Source: a virus. From it: DNA of 25,756 nt. The DNA lies in IMG/VR virus record IMGVR_UViG_3300008952_000270, positions 1-25,756 of that record; one strand, written 5' to 3'. The notes beneath the pieces were generated by a model. It saw nothing but the letters and a program-made list of their open reading frames with translations. It ran no database searches and was not told the DNA's origin. How positions within the stretch are numbered: the stretch's first letter is position 1; each line of letters opens with the position of its first letter. Both the position numbers and the translations under genes were made by a program. Of this stretch, positions 2,297 through 21,500 are shown one piece after another.

Positions 2297-2583
2297 GTAA
2301 GAAAGATTTAGATTTATTAATCAACGAAGCTTTGGATAATATCCGTAGCGATAGAAAATCTGCAAGAGAATTTCTCAACGAGATTGCCAATCAGATTGCC
2401 AATGACGCTGAACAAAATAAATATTTAAGTCCTGTGGCCGCCAAACATATCGAAACTTTGCAGCGCTCCAATGAACAACTTGTAAAGCTTATAGGTATTC
2501 GACAAAAGGGCCAATCCCATTCTGTTGCTTTATCTGAAGAAGATAAAAATAGTTTATTTGATTTAATACAGGAGGAAAATTAA
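2293..2583 (+). CDS. Small helical protein coupled to the late sigma gene
   Basis: A 96-residue, almost wholly helical, charged protein without cysteines or membrane segments. The middle (residues about 45-70: AAKHIETLQRSNEQLVKLIGI region) has coiled-coil character, and the C-terminus ends NSLFDLIQEEN. It begins within the sigma gene through ATGA overlap and stops in TAATG with the amidase gene, so it is translated with both. Two readings are open. The helical oligomer-like core resembles small terminase subunits of T4-like phages. Alternatively, the hydrophobic-acidic C-terminus resembles the sliding-clamp-binding tails of T4 gp33 and gp55, which would suit a late-transcription co-activator next to gp55. 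Neither can be settled by eye, so I leave the function open. Confidence 0.65.
   Translation: MSKKDLDLLINEALDNIRSDRKSAREFLNEIANQIANDAEQNKYLSPVAAKHIETLQRSNEQLVKLIGIRQKGQSHSVALSEEDKNSLFDLIQEEN
2572..2577 (+). promoter_or_regulatory. Ribosome binding site for the amidase-hub gene
   Basis: AGGAGG lies 5 bases before the ATG at 2583, within the last codons of the upstream gene. It is a near-perfect Shine-Dalgarno sequence and fixes the start used for the 495-residue protein. Confidence 0.6.
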
Positions 2584-4070
2584 TGGGATCCCGCGATAGA
2601 ACTTATAGGCCCGGCCTATTTAGCACGCCCCGAGCCGCATTGGGCGCCTGGGCACAAAGTATTCGAGACAGTCTTTCTTACGATACCTTATCGAAGGTAG
2701 AGTCTTTGCACGTAAAAGTATTAACACGTCCAATGCCACTTGATATTGAAATGGCCGACTCTATTCTTAATGGGCCCCAGCTTCGTGCTGATGCCGAAGA
2801 GGCGGTCATAGCAGCAGCGGAAGCAAGAGCCGCCTCAACCAGTGGCGAGGCCACCACAGCAGAATCGGCCGAATTGGATGCCGCGGTAGAGGATATGTTC
2901 GAGACCTACGGAGGTGATGGCGAAGCGGCCCGGGCAGAAATCGAGTCCGCACGACAAGAAGAGCGCGCCCTGGCGGCAGTAGAACTAGAAATGGAAGCCT
3001 TGAGAACTCAATTGCAATCAGGAAACTTTGGTGGCGGCCGGTTCTATTTTAAAGGAAGAGTAGAGATGGTAGGTCTCGATGGTTCCAAAACAATGAGCAA
3101 CTATCACAATATCATTCCAGATCCCTGCAATCTTCCCATTACTGCAAATCCCAAGCAAATAATTCGAATTTTAAGTGCTTATCCTACTTTTGTTTCGCAA
3201 TCTGGCTATGAAGGCAAGATGCCGATGGTGGGAGAAGTGGTTAAAGTTACCATGCACCGCGGCGACTTCGCTCAAAATGGCCAGTGGAACGAATTCGATA
3301 CCCTGTCTAAAGTGGAGCTTGATACAGGCGCCACAACACTGCCAAGTGAAGGGGAGTGCAGTTCTTTAAAAAACCTTTTTGAATACGGAGAGGGAGACAA
3401 TAACGTTGATTCTACCCTTGGCCAGCCAGCTGATGCGCCAGATATAGAAGTTAGCATGTCGGGAGTAGATTTACATCATAATTCACAACCATCGCCTGAT
3501 ACTACAATAGATGAATTTCCGTTTCCTGTGGTTAATATGCTTGACGCACCATTAGGAAGAATAATTAGAAGTAGGGCCCGTGATTGGATCGGCATTGTTA
3601 TACATTATAGCGCCGGCTGGACCGGCGAGAGCGCCATTAGAACTCTTGGTGGACGCGGCCTTTCATATCATTTTATAATCGAGAGAAACGGTGAAATATG
3701 GCAATGTGTGAAACTAAAAGATGCGGCTCAACATTGTCGTGGCTATAATGGCAATCACATAGGAATTTCTCTTGTGAATGTGGGATACGAAAGACCGGGC
3801 GTTAACGCTCAAGGCTCCCACGCTACGATAGATCCGTGGTATGAAGATGATGGAACCAACTTTCATAATGGAAATCGCGGGCATACGTGGCAGCCTTATC
3901 CTCAAGAACAACAGAACGCCCTAGTAAGATTGACGAAAGACTTGATAGGCCGCTGGCCCGGTATTCAGCGAGAACACGTTATCACACATGCGATCGCAGA
4001 ACCGGGCCGCAAACTAGATATAGGTCCAGCTATTGATTTAGAGGCTACCCGAGATCGAATATATGGGTAA
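2583..4070 (+). CDS. Baseplate hub-like protein fused to a type 2 N-acetylmuramoyl-L-alanine amidase
   Basis: A 495-residue modular protein. Residues 1-65 are a short N-terminal region. Residues about 70-155 are an Ala/Glu/Arg-rich predicted coiled coil in visibly GC-rich DNA. Residues about 155-250 (FYFKGRVEMVG to the MVGEVVKVTM region) resemble the hub/OB-like segment found in tail lysozyme proteins of aquatic phages. Residues about 325-495 form an Amidase_2/PGRP-type zinc amidase that cuts the amide between N-acetylmuramic acid and L-Ala. Expected zinc ligands are His341 (VIHYSAGW), His469 (THAIAEPGRKLDIGP) and Asp479; Tyr362 and Lys477 match the catalytic pair known from T7 lysozyme. There is no signal peptide. 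With gp25 and gp6 downstream, the likely role is local cell-wall digestion from the tail tip, like T4 gp5 but with different chemistry. A free endolysin is less likely given the long N-terminal part. Confidence 0.85.
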   Translation: MGSRDRTYRPGLFSTPRAALGAWAQSIRDSLSYDTLSKVESLHVKVLTRPMPLDIEMADSILNGPQLRADAEEAVIAAAEARAASTSGEATTAESAELDAAVEDMFETYGGDGEAARAEIESARQEERALAAVELEMEALRTQLQSGNFGGGRFYFKGRVEMVGLDGSKTMSNYHNIIPDPCNLPITANPKQIIRILSAYPTFVSQSGYEGKMPMVGEVVKVTMHRGDFAQNGQWNEFDTLSKVELDTGATTLPSEGECSSLKNLFEYGEGDNNVDSTLGQPADAPDIEVSMSGVDLHHNSQPSPDTTIDEFPFPVVNMLDAPLGRIIRSRARDWIGIVIHYSAGWTGESAIRTLGGRGLSYHFIIERNGEIWQCVKLKDAAQHCRGYNGNHIGISLVNVGYERPGVNAQGSHATIDPWYEDDGTNFHNGNRGHTWQPYPQEQQNALVRLTKDLIGRWPGIQREHVITHAIAEPGRKLDIGPAIDLEATRDRIYG

Positions 4071-4079
4071 AGGATAAAT

Positions 4080-5057
4080 ATGGGAAGAAGAATACTAAGA
4101 TCAAGAAGAGTGGTAAATCACTCCGATGCTTTTGACGCAGCGCAGACCCGCGATGCCTTTAATATTCAAAGCCATATACGCGATCGCGGAATAGACAGCA
4201 TCAATACATTACCACCCCAGTCGGGATTGGCTAACACTCAGACTCCTAATCCTGTATTAAATTATAATGCAACTGAGGCTGAAAAGGTAGTTAAACATCC
4301 CACTGGAAATTCTTATATTGTATTTGGTCGCGATCGCCCAAGTTCCCAAGTGTCTGGGTATGGCTCAGTCGGCGCCCAGCGTTGTGATACAATTGATATG
4401 GTGGTTGGACGCATGGCGGCTGCCCGACAAGGCCGCGGCGCACAACACGGAACTAATGTAGAAAATCATTTTGGGCTTGATGCGGCAAGAATCTATATTA
4501 GCTCAATGACAGACGTTGATGATAATTTTGGTCTGCAAGAATGCAAAATACCAAATGCGATTGCTCGATCGGCTATTGGAATTAAGGCGGATGCTATACG
4601 CGTCATCGGCCGCGGCGGCGTTAAAATTGTGTCTGGTCGTTCGTATGCGTTTACAAACTTTGGTTCTGACGGGGAAACAAATTCGCAGGGAGGAAGACTG
4701 CAGCGCTGCCCTCCCATTGTGTTGAATGCCGGCAATCAAAGTAAAGAATACTTACAAGGAGTATGTCTTGGAGATAATACTGTAAAATGTATTGAAGATT
4801 TATCTGAAATTTTAAATGTATTTCTCGGAGGTATGCTTCGATCACATACCGTAATGAGCGCCATGGCAACCACATTAGGAGTTACGCCAATTCCACATCA
4901 TGCAGCAGCAGGCGCGGCATCCGCAACAGAGTTTTTACGAATTTCTTTAGAAAATCTTTATTCCCTTAAGACACAAGTAGAGACGTGGCATAAAAATTAT
5001 ATGGTAGAATCTGTTTCACCAAGATATATCGTAAGTAACAACGTCTTTACTACTTGA
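4080..5057 (+). CDS. Putative baseplate/tail spike-associated structural protein
   Basis: A 325-residue protein without membrane or signal segments. The centre (about residues 80-240) is rich in Gly, Asn and short beta-like stretches: ENHFGLDAARIYISSMTDVD, then SAIGIKADAIRVIGRGGVKIV and SQGGRLQRCPPIVLNAG. I recognise this order (a DAARIYIS-like strand, then KADxIRVIGRxGVKIV) from uncharacterised structural proteins of marine T4-like phages, where it often lies near the hub. The C-terminal 80 residues are helical. It starts 9 bases after the amidase gene with AAAGGA as ribosome site, and the 2,247-residue gene follows. Position and beta-rich content suggest a central spike or hub partner, comparable in place but not in visible sequence to the T4 gp5 C-terminal needle or gp27. 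The function is inferred. Confidence 0.7.
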   Translation: MGRRILRSRRVVNHSDAFDAAQTRDAFNIQSHIRDRGIDSINTLPPQSGLANTQTPNPVLNYNATEAEKVVKHPTGNSYIVFGRDRPSSQVSGYGSVGAQRCDTIDMVVGRMAAARQGRGAQHGTNVENHFGLDAARIYISSMTDVDDNFGLQECKIPNAIARSAIGIKADAIRVIGRGGVKIVSGRSYAFTNFGSDGETNSQGGRLQRCPPIVLNAGNQSKEYLQGVCLGDNTVKCIEDLSEILNVFLGGMLRSHTVMSAMATTLGVTPIPHHAAAGAASATEFLRISLENLYSLKTQVETWHKNYMVESVSPRYIVSNNVFTT

Positions 5058-5081: not shown

Positions 5082-8000
5082 ATGGCAGAATCCAAATTTT
5101 TGAAGTATCAAGATGGCTTCAGGGCATCCTCCGACAACCTTCACGATTCTTGTGAAGAAACAGAGGTATCTCAGGCAACCTCTTCATGTCCCGGGTGTAT
5201 ACCTAATACCAATTATATAGCGCCAGACTGGAAAAGCCTGGATCGCACGCGGCCATGGTTTAATGAAAGGACGTGTACATATTATATTACGATGGATACT
5301 ACGGAAGTTAAAACTATTCCGTATTCTGGATCTTCAACTGAAGAGAATGAAGACTTCATAAGCTCCTTGTATGCTGAATATACGTCAGCCGCAGCAGATA
5401 ATATGCTTATTGGAATCAATAAGATGTCGGACATCGGCACCCGGGCCCAATTAGAACCCCACCTTAAAGGGGAAAAATACTATTTAGATGCCAACCCGTC
5501 TAGTTTCCTTAAACTTCTTTATTCTATAGACTTTGATACAATGGAATCTTTAGGTATTCCAGCAGTGGATAGCGAAACAGAAGACGAACAAGCTGATATT
5601 GATAATGAAGAGGCCGCCTCCGATGAATCAGTAGAAGATCTTGCGCAATCATCCCATAGTGTAACCTTTGAAGATAACGATTTTATGAATGGGCTGAAAA
5701 GATTGCAAGATGCTTTGTTGTTATATAATAAGCAATACAAACGCCTTCAAGCATTAGATTCTCAAACTTTTATATATGAAAAAGATAAGAGTGTTTTTCC
5801 GCTAATGCAAGTGGCGTTGAATATAACCAAGATTAGAGATGCCGTAGCCACATTTATGGAGAATAAAGGGTATATATTTCCCGCTCAGCCAGCTTTATTT
5901 AGCGGCAAAACTATTCGCGGCGGTCAAGCAAATAAAAAAATAACAAAGCTAACTTTGAGTTTTAAAGGAGATTATCGTTTAAATACTATAGAAGTAGCTT
6001 TTGCAGGCTGTCCCGGAGAAACAGTAACTTATAGAGGAAAGCGCTTGCGGCGCCTAAAGAAAACGCGCGCCCTAAAGAGCACCTCTGCTATGGCTTATAT
6101 TGCGGCCTATCATGATATGATGCCGGATTTAGAGGCTCGCAAGCCAATGTCTTTTATAGACTTTTTAATAAAACATACTTATCCGATCATTGAGTTGAGT
6201 GCCGGCTGGCCCCGCAAAGATCCTAATCTTATTATTGATGGCTTTGAATTTCCTATACGCTGCAGCGCCCTCGGCACGTTTCTGAGTAACCAGAATATCA
6301 CTCTAGGTCAAGATCTTATGGATCAGGAGTTTAGTTTGCGGGACTCCTTAGAGCACACCTTTGAACGAACAACCAATCGTCGTGGCCTCCAGGCGTGGCA
6401 AGAACAGCAAGCTGAATTAGGAACAATCTTTTCGCCTACTCAAATTGATCGAGACTATATTAAGGGTTTGGCAATGACTCAAAGTTCTCTTCGAATTAAT
6501 GTGGATGATCAGACATATTCTGTTTGTGGCCAAGATTTTGATTTAGGATTTATTGATGATCTGAAAGAATTTTTAGATCGACTTAAAGAAGACGGTCTCA
6601 AAGAAATGCTCTTGGAAACCATCCGCAGCTTAATGAAGGGTATAGATTTAAAAACAGCTCTTCCAATAATTGCTGCAGCCGCGCTAGCTGCAATGGGAGT
6701 CGAAGCTTATGGAAGATTATACGAAAGAATGCCCGGCCATATGAGAAATAAGATAGACCAGATTGTAAAACGTAAAATTGCTGAATATAATAGTCATATT
6801 CATGCGCTCGCCCAGGAGCACGGCTACAGGGCCGAATACTACGGCACCGAAATTGTGGAAGCTATGGCCGAAGAAGATGCTACAACAACCCACGGCTTTG
6901 TGGACATCGGTTATATAAATTCACTAGTTGCCGATGATACCAATGGTTTGGAATTTTTTCGTCCGTGGGAGTTGATGCGAGAGCTTAAAGAGCAGGGTGT
7001 AGCCATGGCCAAAGGATCTGCCGCAACCCCAAATTTAAATCCCCAAAAGCTCAAGAATGGCATTACTCTTAATGCTTCCCAAAAAAAAGTTCGAACCTTA
7101 GCTAAAAAATACACAAGCTCCAAAGAGCAGGAAGGGGCCATAGAGAAAGCCAAAGACTCGGCCGCCATAATGGCGTTTTTTATAGAAGCGACACCCGATG
7201 CATTTGCAGGAGATAGTATCTATGATCTTTTAGAATTATTAGATGGTGTTCCTGGCGCCCGTCTCTTGGGCGCATTTTTAAGAGCAGCCGACTTTCCTGA
7301 TACTCCTATATTGAAGGGCGGCTTCTTAGAGTGGATGAACGATAGAACAGCATCACCCATGTTTAGGGGTCAACGAAATCTTAGAATACCGTATACCCAC
7401 AATCCAGCGATGATTAGAGCAAAATTAATGGACTTTACAAGCTTTCTTTTTGAACTCGCGCGCTTGGCGGTGCAAAAGGCAATCATGCTTGCGATCGCAA
7501 AACTAATACAGGTAGCTTGTCAGGCTATCAATAAGGGCCCTAAAGATGCGATCGATACCCTGAAGGGATTGAAGAACTGTAAAGAGGGGTTTAAAGATAG
7601 CTTTTCTAAAATTATAGAAGATGGAATTGTGCGCTACGCAGAACAACCACTACAAGATGCGCAAGATGTTCTGCAACAAGATCAAACACTTGCATGCACT
7701 ACACTAGAAATGTTTCAAAAATTTGGGGGAGGGGCCCCAGCATTAGCCAACCCGGATACAGTTTTTAGCTTTATTGAAGATCTTTCTTGCTCTCTGACTC
7801 GAAAAGAAATGATGAGCGCATTTTTAGGAGATACAAGCGAAAACACCAACCAATTGGTTGAGGCCCTGGTTGATAATCAATATCCCAATTTGTCGGATAC
7901 CTTTAACAACGTTGGATCTCCCGGGAACTTTTTCAAAGCGATGGGCGATACTTTTCCTCCCGAGTTTAGAAACAAGCTTCAAGATTTTGTAGATAGATTA

Positions 8001-11000
8001 GATGATGTTGACGAAATGCCCGCCAACCCTTCTCTTTGTGCCACAGAAGAAGACCTGCGGAATTTTTGTGATCTCCGCGCGCGACTTCTTGATGGGCGAT
8101 CTTCGCGAGAGCAGAGCGATCTAATGTGTGAACAAGCGAATGACGATATACTGCAGGCATTACGAGACGCAGCGAATGCCATGGATGATCCCATGGGGAA
8201 TGCCTTAAGCGATCCTATGGTTTCAGATCCTGGCTGTGATAATGGCTTGTTGCCTTTTGAGCCAGAAGAATTGGTAACTGCCACCGCTATCGCACTAAGC
8301 GGAGAATCGGACAATATCTCCGCGGCCTTTTCGGAGGATATGATGTCCAGTGATTCTGATGCGCCTGGCTTTCTTAACATGGTCTTAAGTGACACAATGG
8401 GTTCCGCCCTTTCGCTGCACCACACATTAGCCGAGAACAGGAGCAATTATGTAAACTTTTATATCGATGGCTTCTTCGATGATGACGATCAGTATGGACA
8501 GTTTCCCGCTACCGTTGCCCCCTGGTTGATAACTCAGCTTAAGAAGATACCCTCGGTTGCTATTTTTGATACTAATAATGAGATTGGAGAAGACAAGGTG
8601 GTTACTAAAACTTATGCTAGCCTAGGTCTTTCTCTGTTCGGAGGAGTCCAGACTGTAGATCTTCCTGATTTTGGGTATAATACAACAGTAGGTATTGACG
8701 TTGAAAATGAAGAAATAACATTTACACGTTTGGCCCGCAAAGCGCAGCCTGACGTTTTATTGCCATTTGAGGATAATAACTTTGGAATGTCCGAACATGT
8801 TGGTGTTAATCCGGCCTATGGATTTACTATAGCCGCCTTTTTTGGAGAGATTGAAGAAAAAACTGAAAATGATTCAACCATTCCAAGAAATATAGAGGGA
8901 GATAATGTAAGAGTGAGAATAATTGATTATAACAATCCCTACGCACTGCAGATTCCTCCGGAGGTAAGTTCCATGGGCAAGATCGGTGCCTCCCAATGGC
9001 TGTTAACTCAAGCATCGGCAGATATAGCTGCCAGCTTGGCAGACGGCTCGGCTTTATCAACGGCGGAATCCTCAACCAATATTGTCGACTACGATTTTGC
9101 CGCATCCCGAGCTTATGAATTCCTTTCAGTCGAAAATACGCTTGATGAGTTTGACTTATCTTCATATCCCCAATGGGCCCTCTCTTTTGAGAGTCCAACT
9201 TCCTATTCCCCTCCTTTAACAATGTTTATGGAGATAGCCCAGATGGCCGGCTTAAGCTTAACAGGTTTCCGCGATAGATTAAAGGGTATTTATGATACTG
9301 TTCAGCAGAATATCTATAATAACATAGCGAATACAATCGCCAGCAACACCGCCGCCTTTACTTATGGTGCCACTTACGATCCTCTTAACGAGGAAATGTT
9401 ATCTTATGTTGTGAAATCTGAACAAACCGACTCAGATGCCGGCACTAACTATTATGATGCAAAGATTAATGGTGAAAAATTGACCGAAGAAAATATGATT
9501 CTGGGAGTAAGCCATGATCAATTTATGAATGGTTCTGAGGCCCGAGTTCTCTACTTGGACCCCGCTCAATATGGCGGAACTTATTTAAAGCCTCCTCTTT
9601 ATATTAAGCCGTTAAAGGTGCAGGGATGGATAGGGCTTTTAGACGTGCTATATCCTATGGGCCCCGGCTGCGGCTCGGGAAGTAATGATGCAATAAACTT
9701 TGAAGATATTATCAAGGAGGCTTCTGAACAATATCGAAATCTCCCCGATGATGAACGATTGTCAGTCGATGAGTGTTCCTTTGAAGTACCCTATAATAAG
9801 CTCCTCACACGACTTGGAACTGTGCAGGCGCAGTCTTGTATTCAGTCTGCTTGTCGGCTATTTGCTGCAGTGCATTTAATAAAAGCCATGGCAACAATTA
9901 CCAAGTTTAAGCCCGATTTTGATAAAATGTATAGCCCCTTATACGCTCAGTTTATTGTGGAAGATATGGAAGAAGTTCTTACTACCCCTACGAGAAATTC
10001 TTTAATTTTTAGAAGTTCCACTAAAGATAATGAATTCTGGTATAAATTTTTAGAATTAACTGTACAGACCTACGGCCGCCTAGTGGACGAAGGCAAGATT
10101 ATAGATCCTCCGTCGCACGTCTTGAACGTTTTAGAAAGATTAAATGAGAAACAGGCCGCCTACAGATATCCCACAGTAAAACAATTTCGTTCTTTACGCC
10201 GCGGCGGAGATCCGCTCGCTAAAAGTGTGACGACAATTGGTCAATACAGAGAAGCAAAGAAAATCGAATTTCTTCACTCCACCTCGGAGGACGCGAAGAT
10301 TGTGGTAGCCGAGATGATTAAAAAAGAATTAAATATTGTAGGAGAGAATATTACCAAAAACTTATCCTCCTTGGATCTTGAGCCGGATTATAATGATGCT
10401 GCTTCTTACTTTTTAACTGAATTATGCCAAAGTAATTTAGAAGCAGCCTTAAACAAGCCGCTTAAAGAAGAGGTAAAAAGTCTACCAACAGAGCCAGGAA
10501 ACAGCTATTACACTCACGGAAATGAGTTTATTATTAGTGAAGGTGACTATGACACCGATTTATACGATGAAAATTATGTAGGCTATTATCATATACATGA
10601 GGGGATTAACGGAATTGAATATATGGTCGGAGAATATCATACGACCGAGGATCATCCGATATTAAAGCCTGTGGCAGGAGAATTGGTAATTCCCATTGGT
10701 GATTTAATTGATTATGAGGGCATGGAAGACTACTCCACCACTCCGTCAGAGTCGCAGCCATTTATCTTAGAAAAATATATCTCCATAAACGGAACCAAGC
10801 ACTCTACATCGGAGGCGATGGAAATTATTAAGAGCAATCCGAGCACCTCCAATATTTCCGATATTTACCCCGGAACCCTAGAAATAATGTACCGCTCTTC
10901 CCTTTTAGATGTTGTTAGTGCTAAAACCTCTGAGGGTCTAGAAGGCGCACTCCCATCTGAAATGTGGGACGAGGCCATCGGTCTCAGTGGAGAATTGGGG

Positions 11001-11825
11001 GTTAGATATGGAATCCAACTATCTTTATTGATTGATGAGAGTAGCGCTCTCGGCGATGTCGGAACTAAAAGCGAAGCAGTAAAGATTGAATTATTGAGTG
11101 TTGAGATGGATGTATTAGATAAAACAATCGGTGAAATAATTCCCTTTGAAGGAGATAGCTATCAGCTGTTATGCATGATAAATAAATTAAAAAAGGACCC
11201 AAAATTCAAGTTAATAACAGATTACGTCTTTCCAGTTAAAAAGCATATTTCTTTGATGGCTATTTATAATAATTTGGCATTCGTTCCATCGATAGGACAG
11301 ATTACGATCAATCCTTTTATCGAAATAGCTCCTTCTGATACTTTTGTAATGCCAGAGGGTGATAATACACCCGGGGTTTCAGTGGCGGTTGATAATAATT
11401 ATGAAGTTACCTATTCCACCAATGACGCGTGGTCTTCTTTATTATACCGTGTTTTAAATACGCCCGCAGTCCGTGCTGCTAAATTCGATAACTGGGAAGT
11501 AGAAATATTAGGAAGAACTAGAGATGTAATTAAAGAGTCTTTGGAGCGCGCCTACAATTCGGCCGACGAAGATTTTAGCACAATGTTGAATAATGCCTTC
11601 GCCCCAGGCCGGAAATTAGGCAGAAGAAACAATCGTTCAAGCCGCCGATCATCGGATGCTAATATGAACAGGCGCGGCCTTTCGGTATCCGCTATTGCTG
11701 CGCTAAAGAACAAATTAAAGCCCGACGCAGCCACAGCCGCAAGCGATATACTATCCAGAACACAGAGAAAACAAACAATAAATAATCCGTTTGATGCTGA
11801 AGGTTCTTTGTGCAAGAAAGGTTAA
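5082..11825 (+). CDS. Giant baseplate/tail structural protein (2,247 residues), function unassigned
   Basis: One uninterrupted frame with GAGGA 6 bases before the ATG. Order of visible regions: an N-terminal four-cysteine block (Cys24, Cys36, Cys39, Cys65, with CPGC and a following PNTNYIAPDW); an acidic linker at about 159-200; a helical region with two hydrophobic stretches at about 523-543 (LPIIAAAALAAMGVEAYG) and 787-818; a long mixed region; a His-containing block at 1826-1860 (YYHIHEG, MVGEYH, DHPIL) that I have seen in other aquatic phage structural proteins; and a basic Arg/Ser/Asn tail from about 2172. Its place immediately before gp25 and gp6 suggests a baseplate wedge or initiator role (T4 gp7 is the largest wedge protein). 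A tape-measure role is an alternative because of length, but the protein is not uniformly helical. I do not recognise a named family for the whole chain. Confidence 0.8.
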   Translation: MAESKFLKYQDGFRASSDNLHDSCEETEVSQATSSCPGCIPNTNYIAPDWKSLDRTRPWFNERTCTYYITMDTTEVKTIPYSGSSTEENEDFISSLYAEYTSAAADNMLIGINKMSDIGTRAQLEPHLKGEKYYLDANPSSFLKLLYSIDFDTMESLGIPAVDSETEDEQADIDNEEAASDESVEDLAQSSHSVTFEDNDFMNGLKRLQDALLLYNKQYKRLQALDSQTFIYEKDKSVFPLMQVALNITKIRDAVATFMENKGYIFPAQPALFSGKTIRGGQANKKITKLTLSFKGDYRLNTIEVAFAGCPGETVTYRGKRLRRLKKTRALKSTSAMAYIAAYHDMMPDLEARKPMSFIDFLIKHTYPIIELSAGWPRKDPNLIIDGFEFPIRCSALGTFLSNQNITLGQDLMDQEFSLRDSLEHTFERTTNRRGLQAWQEQQAELGTIFSPTQIDRDYIKGLAMTQSSLRINVDDQTYSVCGQDFDLGFIDDLKEFLDRLKEDGLKEMLLETIRSLMKGIDLKTALPIIAAAALAAMGVEAYGRLYERMPGHMRNKIDQIVKRKIAEYNSHIHALAQEHGYRAEYYGTEIVEAMAEEDATTTHGFVDIGYINSLVADDTNGLEFFRPWELMRELKEQGVAMAKGSAATPNLNPQKLKNGITLNASQKKVRTLAKKYTSSKEQEGAIEKAKDSAAIMAFFIEATPDAFAGDSIYDLLELLDGVPGARLLGAFLRAADFPDTPILKGGFLEWMNDRTASPMFRGQRNLRIPYTHNPAMIRAKLMDFTSFLFELARLAVQKAIMLAIAKLIQVACQAINKGPKDAIDTLKGLKNCKEGFKDSFSKIIEDGIVRYAEQPLQDAQDVLQQDQTLACTTLEMFQKFGGGAPALANPDTVFSFIEDLSCSLTRKEMMSAFLGDTSENTNQLVEALVDNQYPNLSDTFNNVGSPGNFFKAMGDTFPPEFRNKLQDFVDRLDDVDEMPANPSLCATEEDLRNFCDLRARLLDGRSSREQSDLMCEQANDDILQALRDAANAMDDPMGNALSDPMVSDPGCDNGLLPFEPEELVTATAIALSGESDNISAAFSEDMMSSDSDAPGFLNMVLSDTMGSALSLHHTLAENRSNYVNFYIDGFFDDDDQYGQFPATVAPWLITQLKKIPSVAIFDTNNEIGEDKVVTKTYASLGLSLFGGVQTVDLPDFGYNTTVGIDVENEEITFTRLARKAQPDVLLPFEDNNFGMSEHVGVNPAYGFTIAAFFGEIEEKTENDSTIPRNIEGDNVRVRIIDYNNPYALQIPPEVSSMGKIGASQWLLTQASADIAASLADGSALSTAESSTNIVDYDFAASRAYEFLSVENTLDEFDLSSYPQWALSFESPTSYSPPLTMFMEIAQMAGLSLTGFRDRLKGIYDTVQQNIYNNIANTIASNTAAFTYGATYDPLNEEMLSYVVKSEQTDSDAGTNYYDAKINGEKLTEENMILGVSHDQFMNGSEARVLYLDPAQYGGTYLKPPLYIKPLKVQGWIGLLDVLYPMGPGCGSGSNDAINFEDIIKEASEQYRNLPDDERLSVDECSFEVPYNKLLTRLGTVQAQSCIQSACRLFAAVHLIKAMATITKFKPDFDKMYSPLYAQFIVEDMEEVLTTPTRNSLIFRSSTKDNEFWYKFLELTVQTYGRLVDEGKIIDPPSHVLNVLERLNEKQAAYRYPTVKQFRSLRRGGDPLAKSVTTIGQYREAKKIEFLHSTSEDAKIVVAEMIKKELNIVGENITKNLSSLDLEPDYNDAASYFLTELCQSNLEAALNKPLKEEVKSLPTEPGNSYYTHGNEFIISEGDYDTDLYDENYVGYYHIHEGINGIEYMVGEYHTTEDHPILKPVAGELVIPIGDLIDYEGMEDYSTTPSESQPFILEKYISINGTKHSTSEAMEIIKSNPSTSNISDIYPGTLEIMYRSSLLDVVSAKTSEGLEGALPSEMWDEAIGLSGELGVRYGIQLSLLIDESSALGDVGTKSEAVKIELLSVEMDVLDKTIGEIIPFEGDSYQLLCMINKLKKDPKFKLITDYVFPVKKHISLMAIYNNLAFVPSIGQITINPFIEIAPSDTFVMPEGDNTPGVSVAVDNNYEVTYSTNDAWSSLLYRVLNTPAVRAAKFDNWEVEILGRTRDVIKESLERAYNSADEDFSTMLNNAFAPGRKLGRRNNRSSRRSSDANMNRRGLSVSAIAALKNKLKPDAATAASDILSRTQRKQTINNPFDAEGSLCKKG

Positions 11826-11846
11826 AAATAAAACTGTTTTCTAATT

Positions 11847-11866
11847 AGAAGAGGATCTATGTAATG
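11847..11866 (+). promoter_or_regulatory. Ribosome site and start-stop-start arrangement at gp25
   Basis: AGAAGAGGA (11847-11855) is followed by ATGTAATG. The first ATG (11859) is followed at once by TAA (11862-11864), whose last A begins the ATG of gp25 at 11864. Spacing favours the second ATG (8 bases from GAGGA) over the first (3 bases), so 11864 is taken as the true start. Confidence 0.5.
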
Positions 11867-12229
11867 AAAAAATTAGGCGTTAAACTACCACTCACAAGAG
11901 ATACATCCGATGGATTTACCATGCTGCACAACATAGCGCAGATGTATCGTCAAAACTTAAAGATGCTAATTTTGACCAATCCAGGCGAACGCGTAATGGA
12001 GCCAAATTTTGGAGTAGGGATGAATCGATTCTTGTTTGAATCTTATGGAAGCGCCGTAAGAACTCAGATAGAAGAAAAAATACAGTCGCAAGTAAGCATT
12101 TATATACCAAATATTCAGATCCTATCAATGGATTTCGGAGAAAGCCAGGATGCGGGGATGCTCACTATAAAGATTAAGTATAACATTACCAATTTAGGAA
12201 TGGCAGATTCTCTTGCCATTACTATTTAA
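11864..12229 (+). CDS. 25: Baseplate wedge protein gp25
   Basis: A 121-residue protein of the gp25/W/XkdS family, the small wedge component that links the baseplate to the first sheath ring in contractile tails and in related injection machines. The core block at residues 37-59, with TNPGERVMEPNFGVGMNRFLFE, is the family signature; GERVMEP corresponds to the conserved surface loop. The remainder shows the expected alternating strand-helix pattern ending in strands (ILSMDFGE, LTIKIKYNI). Length fits the family (T4 gp25 is 132 residues). It precedes gp6 by 14 bases, and the two proteins are direct partners in the T4 wedge core. T4 keeps gp25 in a different gene cluster from gp6, so adjacency here is a compact arrangement closer to that of P2-like phages. 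Confidence 0.9.
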   Translation: MKKLGVKLPLTRDTSDGFTMLHNIAQMYRQNLKMLILTNPGERVMEPNFGVGMNRFLFESYGSAVRTQIEEKIQSQVSIYIPNIQILSMDFGESQDAGMLTIKIKYNITNLGMADSLAITI

Positions 12230-12243
12230 AATAGGGGATTTTT

Positions 12244-14040
12244 ATGGCCGATAATGATAAAAAAATCATTCCTATAGATTATACTCACAGAGAGTTTCAG
12301 TCTATACGAGAAGATTTGATGCAAATAGCACAGCGCTATTATCCAGACAACTTTCGTGATTTTAGCGAGGCATCTTTTGGTGCGTTAATGCTCGACGCTG
12401 TTGCCTATGTGGGAGATCAACTTAACTTTTATTTAGATTATAATATAAATGAGTGCTTTTTAGATACTGCTTATGGTGCTGGAAATATTATGCGCCACGG
12501 CCGCGCCCTCGGATATAAACAAACCGGCGCTAGCTCAGTATATGGCGAGGCTGCAATCTATATAATGGTTCCAGCACAAGCATCTGCATTGGGCCCCGAT
12601 CCCTTATATATCCCTATTATGAGAAAGGGTTCTCGATTTGCTAGTTTGAATGGAATGAACTTTATTTTAACTGAGGATGTAGATTTTAATAATCCTTCAA
12701 ACCCTGTTGTGGTCGGGCGCGTTGATGACACAACTGGCGCCCCCTCCCATTACGCAATTAAGGCATATGGAAATGTGGTCTCTGGAAAGTTTGCCACGCG
12801 CCGCATAAAGGTGGGTGGATATCAAAGATATCAACGCGCTAAAGTCTCCAGCCAATCGATCTCAGAAATAATCTCAGTTTATGATGAACAAGGCAATCAG
12901 TATTATGAAGTGGATTATCTTGCACAAGATATGGTTTATCAAGAAATTCCTAATGATAACTATAAGGAGGATAATGTTCCCTCAGTTATAAAGCCGCTGC
13001 TTGTTAGTCGTAAATTTATAGTAGAGCGAAGCACTCAAGGAACTTTTCTACAGTTTGGAAGCGGCGATTCTTCTGAATCAGGAGTAGTAGCCAACCCCCA
13101 ACAAGTGGCGATGAACTTATTTGGAAAAAGCTATGTAACTGATACAACTTTCGATCCTTCGCGCCTATCGAAAGATAGAAGTTATGGAATCGTCCCAACT
13201 AATACAACGTTGATAGTGAGCTATCGCATAGATAATCGTTTTAATAACAATCTTTCATCTGGCGCCCTGACCTCGGTAGTAGATGCCGCCCTGTCATTTA
13301 AAGATCGCGAACAGCTCACGGTTTCAAAAATAGTAGATATTAATGCATCTGTTGAAATAACTAACGAACGACCCATCGTTGGGGTAAATACGCCAACTAA
13401 TACTGCCGAACTCAAGTCGAGAATTATTGATACTTTTCCCACTCAGAATCGTGCTGTAACTCAGGCTGATTATGAGAACATTGCTTTAAGGATGCCCGGC
13501 AAGTTTGGTTCTGTCAAGCGTGTAAGTGTTCAGAAAGACCCAGATTCGCTAAAAAGAAATTTAAATATGTATGTTATTTCGGAAAACAATTTTGGTAAAC
13601 TGACCACAACTAATGCTGTTATAAAACAAAATTTAAAAACATGGCTAAATCAATATAGAATGATCAATGACACAATCGACATTTTAGATCCTTACATAAT
13701 CAACTTAGGAATTGAATTTGTGATAAAAGTATTGCCCACTGCAGACCGAAATGCCGCAATAGCTCAAGCTGTCAGCCGAATAAATCGTAAATTTTCTCGC
13801 GATTATTTTATTGGAGAACATTTTTATATTAGTGACATATATAGCGAACTTAAGCGCTCAAGAGATGTATTAGATGTGGTTAAAGTAAGGTTGATAAGCA
13901 AGTCGGGTGGTCAATATTCATATATAAACTTTTCAATTAATGAAAATCTTTCTCCGGAAGGTGATTATTTGATCTGTCCCAAAAATGCTATTTTTGAGAT
14001 TAAGTATCCTCCCACAGACATCAAAGGTAAGACTAGGTAA
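12244..14040 (+). CDS. 6: Baseplate wedge protein gp6 (baseplate J-like)
   Basis: A 598-residue protein matching T4 gp6 and the baseplate J superfamily, which dimerises to form the inner wedge ring of contractile-tail baseplates. The N-terminus carries the characteristic block with IDYTHREFQSIREDLM, FGALMLDAVAYVGDQLNFYL and a following Asn/Ala-rich helix (residues about 10-95). The C-terminal half has the family block NRAVTQADYENIALRMPGKF (about residues 401-420), followed by the GSVKRVSV strand. The last 30 residues, ENLSPEGDYLICPKNAIFEI with PPTDIKG, match the gp6 C-terminal arm of T4-like phages. Its length is slightly below the 660 residues of T4 gp6. GGGGA lies 5 bases before the ATG. 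Its TAA overlaps the next ATG by one base. Confidence 0.93.
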   Translation: MADNDKKIIPIDYTHREFQSIREDLMQIAQRYYPDNFRDFSEASFGALMLDAVAYVGDQLNFYLDYNINECFLDTAYGAGNIMRHGRALGYKQTGASSVYGEAAIYIMVPAQASALGPDPLYIPIMRKGSRFASLNGMNFILTEDVDFNNPSNPVVVGRVDDTTGAPSHYAIKAYGNVVSGKFATRRIKVGGYQRYQRAKVSSQSISEIISVYDEQGNQYYEVDYLAQDMVYQEIPNDNYKEDNVPSVIKPLLVSRKFIVERSTQGTFLQFGSGDSSESGVVANPQQVAMNLFGKSYVTDTTFDPSRLSKDRSYGIVPTNTTLIVSYRIDNRFNNNLSSGALTSVVDAALSFKDREQLTVSKIVDINASVEITNERPIVGVNTPTNTAELKSRIIDTFPTQNRAVTQADYENIALRMPGKFGSVKRVSVQKDPDSLKRNLNMYVISENNFGKLTTTNAVIKQNLKTWLNQYRMINDTIDILDPYIINLGIEFVIKVLPTADRNAAIAQAVSRINRKFSRDYFIGEHFYISDIYSELKRSRDVLDVVKVRLISKSGGQYSYINFSINENLSPEGDYLICPKNAIFEIKYPPTDIKGKTR

Positions 14041-15572
14041 TGCTCAGAAGATATACTGCTAGCGCTGACACCACAATTGTCAATGCTTGGCCAATGGACG
14101 AGTTGACCACTCGCGCCACTGGATCAAACACGGGACGCGCCGATGTCATGGAAGTGTTCTCTATTTACGGCCGCTTTACTACGAGTTCACAGGAATTATC
14201 GCGCGCCCTCATCAAATTTCCTGTCGATCAGATTTCCTCAGAGCGAACCAGCGGAACTGTGCCCGCTAGCGGAAGCGTGAGTTTTTATTTGCGCCTATAC
14301 AACGCGCCTATCTCACGAACCAATCCTCGCGATTTTCGTATGGTTATTCAGCCGATATTTACCGCTTGGCAAGAGGGCGATGGCCTCGATATCTATAGTT
14401 ACGCGGATATAACCAATGGAAATGTCGGCGCCAACTGGATGAGTGCCTCCGCAACGGTTGGATGGAATTCGGTTTCGGGAGGTGGCGACTGGCTATCAAG
14501 TTCGGCTGATTATAGATATGAGTCTTATTTTGACCGCGGTACTGAGAACATTGAAGTAGATATTACTCCGCTTGTAGAGAGATGGATTAAAGGTGCCGGC
14601 GGAGGCGGAATTGCAAATTATGGCCTTGGAGTTAAATTATCAGCCAGCTATGAAGCATATGCAACTGGCGGCGTAGGGGATGATCAATCTGTTCAGAAAA
14701 ACGTTGGAGGCGCTACGAAGTCTTACTATACTAAGCGCTTCTTTTCAAGAGGCTCTCAATATTGGTTTATGCGCCCCGCGATCGAAGCTCGTTGGGATGA
14801 TGTCGAGCGCGATGACCGCGGAAACTTCTTTTTCAGTAGTTCTCGTGCCCCGGCCGCGGATAATTTAAATACAATTTATTTTTACAACTATCTTCGCGGC
14901 AGGTTGGTGAATCTGCCTGATGTTGATGATGGCACATTACTAATAAGTTTATACTCTGGTTCTACCTATGATACGCATCCTGACACCTCTAAATTGACGC
15001 TCTATGATGGGCAGACAAGTATGACTGGAGGCTGGATTGCTACTGGAGTTTACACCTGTTCTATAGGAATCGTTTCCTCATCTACTAAAACATTGTATGA
15101 TGTGTGGCATTCTGGGGGCACTCAATACTACACGGGATCAATACTGCCTCAGCTATTTGGAGGCGGAAATACCAATGCTAGTCCCAGCTATATCCTTAAC
15201 ATTAGCAATTTAAAAGATAAATATTTTTCCAACGAGACTGCTCGAATGACTTTATATGCGAGAGAAAAATATTGGAGTCCCACTGTCTATACGAGAGTGA
15301 CCACGCCAGCGCCCGTAAGCTCTATTGTGAGCGCATCTTATCGTGTTTATCGAGTTTTAGATGGGTATAGTGCCATTGATTACGGAACAGGTTCTGATTT
15401 TCATACAGGTCTTTCATATGACATCTCTGGAAATTATTTTGATTTAGATATGAGGCTATTGCAGCCCGGCTATGCTTATGGGCTGAAATTTGCATTTTAT
15501 GACGCGCGTCTAAAGTCATGGCAAGAGCAAGATCAGGTATTTAAGTTTAGAGTAGAAGATTATGAGTATTAA
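14040..15572 (+). CDS. Beta-rich virion protein with DNRLRE/CBM96-like N-terminal domain
   Basis: A 510-residue protein coupled to gp6 through TAATG. Residues 1-205 show the DNRLRE/CBM96-like pattern: an opening ADTTI strand, RALIKFPVDQI, a FYLRLYN strand, an FTAWQEGDG block, then IEVDITPLVERWI and NYGLGVKLS. In bacteria this fold is found in extracellular, often carbohydrate-binding or stalk-forming proteins. Residues about 280-390 form a strand-rich middle region (LVNLPDVDDGTLLISLYSG, then GVYTCSIGIV). The C-terminal 120 residues contain REKYWSPTVY, YRVYRVLDGY and LSYDISGNYFDLDMRLLQPG with a closing QVFKFRVED, blocks I recognise from uncharacterised aquatic phage structural proteins. It has no signal peptide. 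It lies between gp6 and the giant LamG protein, so a baseplate-periphery or fibre-connector role is inferred. The exact role is unknown. Confidence 0.75.
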   Translation: MLRRYTASADTTIVNAWPMDELTTRATGSNTGRADVMEVFSIYGRFTTSSQELSRALIKFPVDQISSERTSGTVPASGSVSFYLRLYNAPISRTNPRDFRMVIQPIFTAWQEGDGLDIYSYADITNGNVGANWMSASATVGWNSVSGGGDWLSSSADYRYESYFDRGTENIEVDITPLVERWIKGAGGGGIANYGLGVKLSASYEAYATGGVGDDQSVQKNVGGATKSYYTKRFFSRGSQYWFMRPAIEARWDDVERDDRGNFFFSSSRAPAADNLNTIYFYNYLRGRLVNLPDVDDGTLLISLYSGSTYDTHPDTSKLTLYDGQTSMTGGWIATGVYTCSIGIVSSSTKTLYDVWHSGGTQYYTGSILPQLFGGGNTNASPSYILNISNLKDKYFSNETARMTLYAREKYWSPTVYTRVTTPAPVSSIVSASYRVYRVLDGYSAIDYGTGSDFHTGLSYDISGNYFDLDMRLLQPGYAYGLKFAFYDARLKSWQEQDQVFKFRVEDYEY

Positions 15573-18500
15573 AAAGCTTTTTGAAGCAGGCAATAAAAAT
15601 AAAAACTATAGCGATTTTAAAACCGAAAAAGAAGAATTCGAATCAGTTGAATCGCGAAAAAATGCTGAAGAACTTATTTTAAAACAAAATACGTTTGTCC
15701 CAGACATAAATTATGCAATTCCTGCTGAGTTTGTAAAATATGGCTCCGCTTTCTTATATTATAAAGGTGCCCTTGATCGAATTTCTGATTACTATCCTTA
15801 TGATGGTTCCGCCGCCGAGAAGAACAAATTTTATAATAATCTTCTGGAAGTTGAAAAATATGTTTTCGACAGTCGATATCCGCGCACAAACGGGCATATT
15901 AAATTTAGCTCGGCAGGGTGGGGCTCAAGAACCTCTACCGCGGATGGGTTTGGATTACCGGCAACAACGGAATATATTACAATAAAAGGAGGTCCTCTAA
16001 CCTCTTCGGGCACCAGCATGATCGAGCGTGGCCCCAATCCCTATAATGATGTTTTCAATTATTCGAATGTTTACGATGAGAACATCTATGAGACAGCAGG
16101 CCTTCCTGACGATTATGGCCTAGGAACGCGCCTATCAAATTTAAGATCTAACTTTGATACTGGAGTTACTGTAGAGTTTTGGTTGAAGACTGGCTCGATA
16201 AACTACTCAGCCACAACACAGAAACAAGTTGTCTTTGACATGTGGAATAACTATTCCGCTGCTACTACCAATTACGGCCGTCTAACCATTAGCTTACATA
16301 CTGCATCCGCCGCATCGCCATCCACATCCGCTGGTAATGCGCCCTTTATGTATACTATTCATTCTGGCTCTTCGGGAGGAACCCGGGTCGTAAGAACAAT
16401 TGGAACCGGTTCCGCCGCAACTGCTTCGTTTGGATCGTGGAGTCATTACGCTATGACATTCGCCAATTCTGGTAGTAATTTTGTAGCCAAGCTGTATGTT
16501 AATGGTACATTAAACTCTACTAATGTGCATACCTCCACGACTATGGCGGAGATAAATTCAAAGAATATGATGGCCCGCCTGGGCGCCCTCATTACGACTC
16601 CTTCTGGTTCTACCGCCGCTGCTGGCGCTGGTAAACTTAGCGGCTCCTTAGATGAATTTAGGTTCTGGAAAGAGAGACGCAGCGCAAAACAGATTGCAGA
16701 AAATTATTTTGTGCCCGTAGAAGGAGGAGCAAATAGTGATATTTCTAATACAACGTTAGGTGTTTATTATAAGTTTAATGAAGGTATTACTGGTATCACG
16801 GCAGAAGATGAAGTAGTATTAGATTATGCCGGCCGAATCAGCAATGGACTTTGGACTGGCTATACAGCCACAGCGCGCAGCACAACATCAGCCATTGTAG
16901 AGGCCGGCGCCGCATCAACAGAATATAAAGATCCGATTATTCGCACCACCAACCCGCTCTTCCAGACCTTATCGTCTAGTTTATGTGCGAGTGGTTCCTA
17001 TTACGATTTAAACAATGCTTCACAATTTAAGAATTATGCGCCTTCTTGGGTGATCGAAGAACAAGATAGCTCCGAACATCCAGATTTAGATTTAATGTCA
17101 CATATATGCGGTGCATATTTTGACAAAATATATCAATTAATCAGAGCATTGCCGGATTTCAAGGGACAGCAGTATACATCCGCTTCGTCCACTCCACTAC
17201 CATTTGCTCAACATTTGCCCCAATCTTTAGGTCTTTATACCACCGATCTGTTTATTGACGGCACCATTATGGAGCGTTTGTTAAACAGGACCAACGATTC
17301 GTTATTTCAGAATGACCTACAAGATACTAAAAATCTAATTTACTTAAATCTTTATAACAATTTGGCCAATATCTTTAAGGCTAAAGGAACAGAAAAAGCT
17401 GTTAGAAATGTCCTTCGCTGCTTTTATCTAGATGACTCTCTTTTTCAATTCAGAACCTATGGAAAAAATGTCACATATAAGCTTGAAAATAATCTTCAAG
17501 AACATATTGCACAAGATACTCGTGTCTCTTTTAACTCAGTAAACAATGCTCGCGGTATCGTTTATCAAAAAGCTGATAGCTCAAATGCAAATAGTCGAGG
17601 ACATATTTCTGGAAGCAACAGCGGATCTGCTACAGACTATCAAAGTGCTTATGGTGCTACGATGGAGGCAGACGTCACATTTCCTGTAATAAATACAACT
17701 TACGACAAGCTTCATCGTAATTTTGTTTCGGCATCCCTTTTTGGCCTACATACTGTGAATTCAGCATCAGCCAATTCCATGGATGGTTCTGATACCACTT
17801 TAGTTACCAACAACTACGCCAACTTTCAGGTGCACGCAATTAGAGATGAGCCATTTTCTCGGAATGTATATTTTCGCCTTTCTTCGTCTCACTATCCTTA
17901 CCCGCTGCCTTATTTGACAAGTAGCACTTTCTTTTCCGTATACAATAATGAAAGGTGGAATCTTTCAGTCCGTATCAGGCCTCAGAAATATCCTCTTAGC
18001 ACTTTCGTGTCGGGAGCTAATGCTCCGACTTATGACGTAATTTTCCGCGGCGCAAGCACTCGGATCGGAGCGCTCGATCGACAATTCGAAGTATCTGGAA
18101 CAGTAAACTACACGGTAGGCTCTAATTTCCTAAAGGCCCCTAAGAGAATATATGTAGGCGCCCAGCGCACCAATCTGACGGGCGCCCTGGTTAATCTTTC
18201 AGATGTATATGTTTCCAATACAAAATATTGGAGCCAATATATTGATAATATTTCGCTAGATCAGCACGCGTATGATGCAGACAACAGAGGAGTCTCAGGC
18301 TCTTATAAAAATATATCCCCCATTGGAACCCTTAATGATAATTTTGATTTACTCAGACGGAACACGCTGGCTTTAGATTGGACATATTATAATGTAACGG
18401 CCTCAAACGCGACCGGAAACTTCACTGTGATGGATTTCAGTTCGGGCTCTTCCCTTATTCGAGACAACTATGGGTGGCTAGGAAATATTGTTGGATATCA

Positions 18501-21500
18501 GCACACTGGCTATGGCTATGGCTTTGCCACTTCATCGACCACCGTCTTAGACAATAATGAAATCAATATGTATAAGTTTGTAGATCCCGAAGCTGCAATT
18601 GATTCTTCGATGATCAGTATCCTTTCTGAGGATGATACACTCTATGATATTGTTGAAACTGTGCCGAGTTATGTGAATACATTTGAAAAAAGCATGTATG
18701 GAAATATTTCTGAAGAAATGCTTACGTTCTTGGCCGGTGTGGTTGATTTTAATAATATTATTGGCGAACCGGTAAATCGTTATCGTAGTCGATATAAAGC
18801 AATAGAAAAATTACGTGAAGCCTTCTTCCGACGCGTCACTGAAGTAACTCAAGTTGAAAAGTTTATAAACTATTATAAATGGTTTGATGACGCCCTGTCG
18901 ATTGTTATTGGCCAACTTATGCCAGCTTCAAGCGATTTTATTGAAGATACTTTAAACATAGTCGAATCACATGTGTTGGAGAGAAACAAATATGAGAGTA
19001 AGTTTCCCACTCTAGAAATGGCCGGCACTGATCCTGAAGCAGCTATCGGAGGAATGGCGTCTGCTCCTAGATGGGAGTTTGCTCATTTTCCGCCTTCCGG
19101 CTCCGATCCTTCCGAATGGGTTTCGCCCACAAGAGGTAATCCAGCATTTAATGTGTTTTATTGGAAGAACATGGCAGAGAGGTCTATACCTCCGATCGCA
19201 GTGAAGGGTAATGCCACTATTAATGCTCAGCGAGAAACCATCAGGAAAATAGTGTCCTCTCAACCGCATTTAAGTCGCAGTTTGCCAGTATTTGCAACCG
19301 TAGATGGCACCACTTATACGCGCAATACGTTTGCTAGTCGTAATTCACAAAGATTTTATTCGCTTAAAACCCAGCTTAGCGGAAGCCCTGCTTATGGAGG
19401 GATCCGCGGCGGCGTCAACTTCCCGCCCGGGAAGAAGATTGACTTCACCTATAATGCATTGCGCCCCTATGGGCCCGTTAATCATTCTGGCGGCGTGTTT
19501 GTGCCACAAAATGTATTGATGGCGTTTGCTGAAGATTTCACTGGCCTGCTGAACAATCGAGATCCTAAAGAGCCTAATAAAAAGATAAAGCGCAACGTTA
19601 AAGTGTTGCACGGCCGCAATTATGAGGATGGGCTAGGCTACCAGACCGTTAAGTCCTCAATGGCGTTTCCTTTTAACATTATCAGTTCCTCAGTTAAGAG
19701 CGGATACTTAAAAGAGGTTAGCGATAAAGTTACCGGCAATGTGGCGATTACCAACCTTCACAATGATGTTTATGGGCCTGATATGGAGATTCCACTTCAA
19801 GGACCGTTCACGAACTATGCAGTAGGAGGTCATCAGTCGCGACATATCGGGTTGAACTATAAGAGTGCCACCCGAGAGCTTGATAACTATCGCACACGCC
19901 CCGAAGCTTGGAAACTGCTTTTGGGAACATGCACAGATACAACAAGGATCATAGAAGATTCAGGCGCCATTGGTATGGTTGGTCCTGATTATCCATGGCC
20001 CGAAGCGAATGATGATGGAGCGCGCCCATATCCAATGACAGCTTCGCAGTTGGCAGTTTACTATCGAGGCCTTACAGCGAAACGCCCAGTAAATATTCGC
20101 AACATCCATCACACCACGGGCTCCCCCACTAAGCTTGGCAACTATAATGAGAATTATGAGGTTGTAAGCACTGTGGGCGCATACGCTAACCCGCGCGCTT
20201 TTATTGATAGCCAGCCAACGCTTCCTTCAAACGTATTTCAGTCTAATACTACGAGTTCAATGACTGCTAATACTTGGTTGGATTCTGTGACTCGCTTTGC
20301 TGGCACTAGATCACTCGGAAGAAAACTGTTTGTAGAGCCGTATTACATCGGCAATTACCTCAGAGGAAATGATCCGGTGCTTAACAACAGCAGTGCCGGC
20401 CGCAATAAGAGCGTTATAAGAAGTAGATTTAATTCTCCCGGCGGCCCTGAGACTCACACCCCCGCATATACTGATTTTCGTTCTGATTCTATCTCTGCCT
20501 ATAACTCTTGGAACAATAGAAACCTAAGTGTCATTAAGCCTTCGCAGGGCCCAAGCGGCTCTTGGGAGTCGTTCGATGGAAATCTCCAAACCGGCTCCAT
20601 TCGCGTTAACGATATCCTTAACAAGCCTTATGGTCTGCGTTCTCACTTGGCCCGCCACACGGCAAGATTTGGTCGAGATTCTCTATTCCAAACGGGTACA
20701 ATGTCCGGTCCTGGATACGCCACGCGCCTGCAAGCCCCTGGCGCAACTTACAATCAGCTTCCTGGCTTTCACAAAGTGCACCGTAATAATTTAGCACGGC
20801 TTATCAAACATGATCAAATTCAACAGATTACTGTTGGACCATTGAGCAATACTATTGCGGGCCACTATGTCGAAGGCGCTAATGGAGATAAGGGCCCCGC
20901 GTTAGTTCTCACTTCATCGACAGAAGGTTGGGATGAAGGAACTCAACTTTATCAAGCACTCACTAGTAGCGGATTCACATATTCTGGCTGGCATTATTTT
21001 GCTCCCGGATCGAGTGTTCGCAGATTCTTCAACATGAACAGAACTCAAGCCGGCGCCTTCCCTGGTCTCTCGATAGCTAAGGGCTATAGCTCTTCCCGTC
21101 ATCGGATTATAGTGCTGATGGCAACTGCTAATAGTGATGATAGTTCACGACAGCAAGCTGAATGGCAGGTGACAGGTAATGTTGGAGGAGATCTAACGTC
21201 TGAATCGTGGGTTCATGTGGCTGTGACCTGGACAGGTTCTAATGGCTCACTTACTGCAGCAGAGCCGCTGGTCTATATCAACGGCGTGTCTCATACGGTT
21301 ACAGAAGATACCGCACCCCTTGATTATTATCCTCAAAATTGGCGCGTTATTGAAGATTATAAAGACTTTAGCACTGTTAAGATTTTGGGCAATAACTTCG
21401 TTACTTTCGGCGGAAACCATAGCGATAAAACTTGGAGCTATTCAGGCTCAATAGATGAGGTTTCTATCTGGAAGCGCAAGCTTAATTCAGACGAAGTAAA

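Follow-up and report, generated by a model that had tools for sequence, protein, structure and literature searches.

The contractile tails studied in most detail use different proteins for the wedge core and for the receptor-binding parts. Within the wedge, gp6 and gp7 of T4 have been equated with gpJ and gpI of P2, with Mup47 and Mup48 of Mu, and with TssF and TssG (PMC6300606). Simple contractile baseplates do without the T4-type periphery of gp8 to gp12 (PMC10457771, PMC10966104). The wedge of XM1 is built from two copies of its gp16 and one of its gp17, with its gp15 and gp12, and this gp17 has 242 residues compared with 1,032 for T4 gp7 (PMC10457771); the baseplate of A-1(L) has five components, one of which is a LysM protein that has been likened to gp53 (PMC10966104).

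We analyzed a 25,756-base viral record, referred to here as the window, that carries gp25 and gp6 genes among a few very large open frames. What it encodes looks like a new variant of the contractile-tail baseplate, with a conserved core extended by two enormous proteins. One of them resembles a fusion, since two separate genes stand in its place in a relative (G004). The window is a fragment, and absence of gene families from the wider genome was therefore tested in relatives instead.

Layout and conservation of the baseplate operon

All of the genes considered here lie on the plus strand. After the end of an epimerase gene and small genes comes a late sigma-factor-like gene (positions 1586 to 2296), found at a constant distance upstream of the baseplate genes in the relatives and in the known phages Mel-JY01, immuto, and LR756508. 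A 495-residue protein (2583 to 4070) with a C-terminal Amidase_2 domain (residues 334 to 481; E 3.9e-21) is, judging from its position, a probable counterpart of the spike or tail lysozyme. The 325-residue protein that follows (4080 to 5057) matched no family; it is conserved, with 36 relatives by BLAST, and is probably spike associated. The next five genes encode a 2,247-residue protein (5082 to 11825), gp25 (11864 to 12229), gp6 (12244 to 14040), a 510-residue protein (14040 to 15572), and what we call the giant protein, a frame that starts at 15562, runs for at least 3,398 residues, and is still open at the window end (25755). The initial annotation had the sizes and coordinates of these genes right, including the exact 2,247 residues of the frame ahead of gp25, and its view of gp25 and gp6 as clear was borne out. 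The sheath initiator gp25 matched PF04965 (GPW_gp25) at E 4.6e-13 (49.2 bits, cutoff 27.2) and a PHROG baseplate wedge family at E 5.2e-18. For gp6, the baseplate wedge family PHROG 6 gave E 3.6e-21 and PHROG 219, which includes T4 gp6, gave E 1.7e-16; Pfam Baseplate_J reached just 16.5 bits, under its cutoff of 21.1.

As had been proposed, the baseplate operon encodes a small number of very large proteins; it is real and is kept across the clade, with near-complete linkage. Searching IMG/VR with gp6 gave 137 relatives, of which 80 were kept. The 510-residue protein's family lies behind gp6 in all 69 relatives with enough downstream sequence, and the giant lies downstream of gp6 in 46 of 46 that are sufficiently long. 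A recognizable relative of the 2,247-residue protein precedes gp25 in 61 of these 69 relatives; the other eight, most of them from a diverged group, have upstream genes that, where complete, encode 1,861 to 2,142 residues with weak or undetectable similarity. A profile search with the 2,247-residue protein itself (328 relatives, 80 kept) found the order of this family, then gp25, then gp6 in 76 of 77 testable relatives. The clade occurs in hundreds of IMG/VR contigs, and its members are uncultured.

The 510-residue protein belongs to a DNRLRE family, as first described: NF033679 was matched by 19 of 26 family members (best E 2e-8), with no match from the window's own copy. It is homologous to proteins of 369 to 420 residues that follow gp6 in known phages. 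Its fixed place beside gp6 suggests that it probably sits on the wedge.

None of the T4 gp7, gp8, gp9, gp10, and gp11 families matched among the window proteins. Beyond the window, six relatives of 131 to 204 kb were searched together with three related phage records, and T4, as the positive control, gave the expected matches. No match to gp7 (phrog_964), gp8, the gp9/gp10 N-domain, or gp11 was obtained in these nine genomes. Likewise, gp12 was not found in the six relatives, unlike the Flavobacterium phage immuto, which has a gp12-like C-terminal match. The family of gp10 gave a marginal match (E ~1e-4) in three of the six; it falls in a frame of 249 to 288 residues distant from the baseplate operon (113810 to 114091 in G002; also G005 and G006). 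Thus, the statement that no gp7 to gp11 lies around gp25 and gp6 holds at the level of family matches, and standard gp7 to gp10 genes did not turn up elsewhere in the relatives, gp10 being marginal. The further statements that gp7 is missing and has been replaced are probably wrong, since the giant carries a gpI/gp7-like motif (see below). As simple contractile baseplates do without gp8 to gp12, their absence is ordinary, as in P2, Mu, XM1, and A-1(L), and therefore nothing needs replacing; T4 is the wrong yardstick for this locus.

Other tail genes lie outside the operon. The contractile sheath family PF17482 scored over its cutoff in all four relatives tested and in the three related phages; LR756508.1 has two sheath-like genes, at 204602 and 208100, within one huge phage record. 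A gp53-like LysM wedge protein of ~113 residues is encoded elsewhere in nine of nine genomes (phrog_7145, E 2e-10 in G001; weak with the T4 family). In G001 (148241 to 148582) and G003 (134736 to 135086), the LysM gene is flanked by a tape-measure-like region and by a protein of 1,109 to 1,324 residues; the latter, without an assigned family, may be the hub.

Domains of the two large proteins

The giant is 3,140 to 4,756 residues long as an open frame in the relatives. The reported LamG domain is present at residues 199 to 379 (16156 to 16698), with a whole-protein score for PF13385 (Laminin_G_3) of 63.7 bits compared with a cutoff of 27.6, and Pfam marks a second lectin-like region at residues ~1,880 to 1,987. 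Between them, residues ~450 to 1,160 are homologous to proteins of 1,265 to 1,400 residues that Mel-JY01, immuto, and LR756508 encode at the corresponding position (hhalign 95 to 97%). An AlphaFold2 model of residues 440 to 1,175 was confident mainly in a beta domain (residues ~650 to 1,004; 17509 to 18573), which gave VIA Z scores of 13 to 16 to pentraxins and related LamG-like domains, and had low confidence in the helical part. The VIA list for this core is filled by the pentraxin/LamG part, leaving gp7 unlisted, and so does not exclude gp7.

The helical stretch (17239 to 17481) contains a KxKGT motif, with KGT at residue 608, that is invariant across 29 sequences; gpI of P2 carries KGT in a matching local context. 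Scans of viral contigs with P2 gpI and Mu gp48 returned mostly near-identical copies of no use for a profile, and the gpI profile was built from 14 sequences of annotated phages. It matched the giant exactly at the KxKGT site, with P 8e-4 and an hhalign probability of 25%, under the Pfam cutoff. Independent matches also came from the giant family and, weakly, from the isolate proteins, and the DNRLRE and 2,247-residue alignments used as controls gave none. Tail_P2_I (PF09684) had no match in the window copy; its best score on a homologue was 12.7 bits, below the cutoff of 20.6, and a match under the cutoff on the LR756508 homologue falls at the same place as the giant's motif. Comparison of T4 gp7 with the giant profile gave nothing (hhalign 0.2%), and searches of PDB sequences with four profiles returned chance-level matches only. 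Because of its position behind gp6, its KGT motif, and its homology to same-slot proteins in known phages, we regard the giant as the probable equivalent of gp7/gpI with lectin-like extensions. The motif, synteny, and profile match are suggestive of this role and not proof of it.

The C-terminal unit of the giant (residues 2,184 to 3,392; 22111 to 25737) has a separate history in one relative. In G004, two adjacent genes encode 2,076 and 1,414 residues, and the product of the second matches this unit (BLAST E 6e-104). At the junction, the stop of the first gene is followed by a ribosome-binding-site-like sequence and, 15 bases past the stop, by a start; a frameshift artefact was judged unlikely given this arrangement. 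In the other 26 matching relatives, the unit lies within open frames of 3,140 to 4,756 residues. Thus, a single gene encodes the giant in most relatives, and G004 uses an adjacent pair. With 26 relatives unsplit and the unit absent from Mel-JY01, immuto, and LR756508, fusion seems a likelier direction than fission, although this direction is inferred and not proven.

The 2,247-residue protein had no Pfam or PHROG family, no relative in 50,697 phage records, and no PDB sequence match; a single-sequence pattern search for close relatives also gave nothing. Its family varies in length, mostly from 2,100 to 2,881 residues. For the core (residues 690 to 1,800), an AlphaFold2 model from 66 sequences reached a pLDDT of 73.5. 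This portion had no Foldseek match in the PDB below E 0.1 and VIA Z scores under 5; Foldseek did match it to two viral BFVD models, A0A516M7H3_2 (E 3.5e-26) and A0A1B1IUZ9 (E 1.5e-5). The protein is linked to gp25 and gp6, and a baseplate role is therefore argued for it: on this gene linkage, it is probably a clade-specific structural component of this baseplate.

The same protein is cysteine rich. In an alignment of 25 sequences, 17 columns of the N-terminal half hold cysteine in at least 90% of members, and the window copy lacks eight of these. Window residues 396, 432, 504, 516, 738, 761, 821, and 850 are not cysteine, though more than 90% of relatives have cysteine there. These eight might have been lost as pairs, as would fit contacts made two by two, for instance in disulphides or metal sites. 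A fully conserved N-terminal C-x11-C-x2-C-x25-C cluster (residues 24, 36, 39, and 65) is possibly a metal site. In several relatives, the 2,247-residue protein has a Y-x-G-x-Y-H-x-H motif (window residue 1832), also seen in a 1,305-residue protein encoded behind the giant in G003 (83022 to 86939).

Readings of the baseplate

We think it reasonably likely that this is the baseplate operon of a contractile-tailed, uncultured phage clade with an ordinary core, and that the third wedge subunit is most likely the giant. The core would consist of the spike, the gp25 sheath initiator, gp6, and a third wedge subunit of the gp7/gpI type. We imagine that residues ~450 to 1,160 of the giant form a heterotrimer like (gp6)2-gp7, linking the wedges to one another, and that its LamG/pentraxin-like domains and long C-terminal part extend outward as lectin-like arms. 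The giant would join wedge core and arms, so wedge and receptor-facing periphery would be one chain. The DNRLRE protein would sit on the wedge, and the 2,247-residue protein would probably contribute to the structure of this baseplate as well. One can envision a bolder version, which we consider rather doubtful: that the single chain of 3,100 to 4,800 residues covalently links host contact to the contraction trigger and that the cysteine-rich protein of ~2,200 residues, with a fold absent from the PDB, makes up a novel ring or collar of the baseplate that no solved contractile machine has.

Other readings of the large proteins have to be weighed against this one. The giant might be only a tail fibre or adhesin, with the gp7-like subunit being the DNRLRE protein or an unrecognized gene and the KGT match due to chance. 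LamG and pentraxin folds are indeed typical of adhesins, the PF09684 match stays below its cutoff, and the gene directly after gp6 encodes the DNRLRE protein rather than the giant. We nonetheless hold this to be unlikely, given that the motif is invariant in 29 sequences and that the gpI profile finds the giant family, and weakly the isolate proteins, with nothing in the DNRLRE or 2,247-residue proteins. The 2,247-residue protein, for its part, could be a tape measure or an internal virion protein that is injected rather than a baseplate component. Its large size, helical parts, and variable length would fit; the 22 cysteines and mixed alpha/beta structure argue against it, and the relatives have a better candidate a few genes from the sheath and tube, a tape-measure-like gene of 868 to 1,028 residues that is Ala-rich and free of cysteine, with clustered hydrophobic segments. 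With the 2,247-residue gene also far from the sheath in the relatives, we rejected it as the tape measure, and the reading as a whole, injected protein included, seems quite unlikely.

Finally, the initial annotation saw the wedge periphery of T4, gp7 to gp11, as merged into a few large proteins, a T4-like baseplate from fewer chains. The absence of those families, the merged state of the giant relative to G004, and a weak match to Pfam Gp10_D3 (E 0.019) in one DNRLRE family member speak for it, and the merging of the giant is the part that stands. However, neither the giant profile nor the 2,247-residue profile showed any similarity to T4 gp7 to gp12. The view that gp8 to gp11 are contained in the large proteins, or replaced by them, is not supported, the more so as simple contractile baseplates lack that periphery, and we regard a merged T4 periphery as improbable.

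If our preferred reading of the giant is true, joining a probable wedge subunit and lectin-like parts in one chain would be another route for linking host recognition to contraction. This clade would also have added to its baseplate a large protein family with a core unmatched in the PDB. Names can also be proposed for dark proteins of very large size, with the giant called a probable gp7/gpI equivalent and the 2,247-residue family a baseplate part specific to the clade. The two-gene state in G004 makes the evolutionary step testable.

Comparison with known contractile tails

The closest layouts are those of the Microcystis phage Mel-JY01, immuto, and the uncultured huge phage LR756508, which share the order of sigma factor, spike-region genes, gp25, gp6, DNRLRE homologue (hhalign 99 to 100%), and giant-core homologue (95 to 97%). 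They differ in that their giant homologue has just 1,265 to 1,400 residues, without the C-terminal unit, and in that a gene of 139 to 223 residues occupies the slot of the 2,247-residue protein. We found nothing useful in the literature on the baseplate of Mel-JY01 or immuto.

Compared with T4, the relatives share gp25, gp6, the contractile sheath, and a gp53-like LysM protein but lack family matches to gp7, gp8, gp9, and gp11, with gp10 marginal. The proposed wedge type is like that of the Anabaena myophage A-1(L) and the Vibrio phage XM1, in which a (gp6)2-gp7-type wedge and a sheath initiator occur without the gp8 to gp12 periphery (PMC10966104, PMC10457771); A-1(L) also has its gp53-compared LysM protein, as do the relatives of the window (PMC10966104). 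No chains of 2,000 to 4,700 residues are described for either phage, and the gp7 counterpart of XM1 is far smaller than the giant. In gene order, the window follows P2 (V-W-J-I-H) and Mu (45-46-47-48-49), each with spike, gp25, gp6, gp7-like protein, and distal protein or fibre in turn, and gpI of P2 shares the KGT motif with the giant. These phages have neither the DNRLRE gene nor the 2,247-residue gene, and gpI and Mu gp48 have merely 176 to 180 residues. The Klebsiella phage ST16-OXA48phi5.4 gives a further example of gpI leading a long protein: a gpI-like domain begins a coding sequence of ~3 kb, much shorter than that of the giant.
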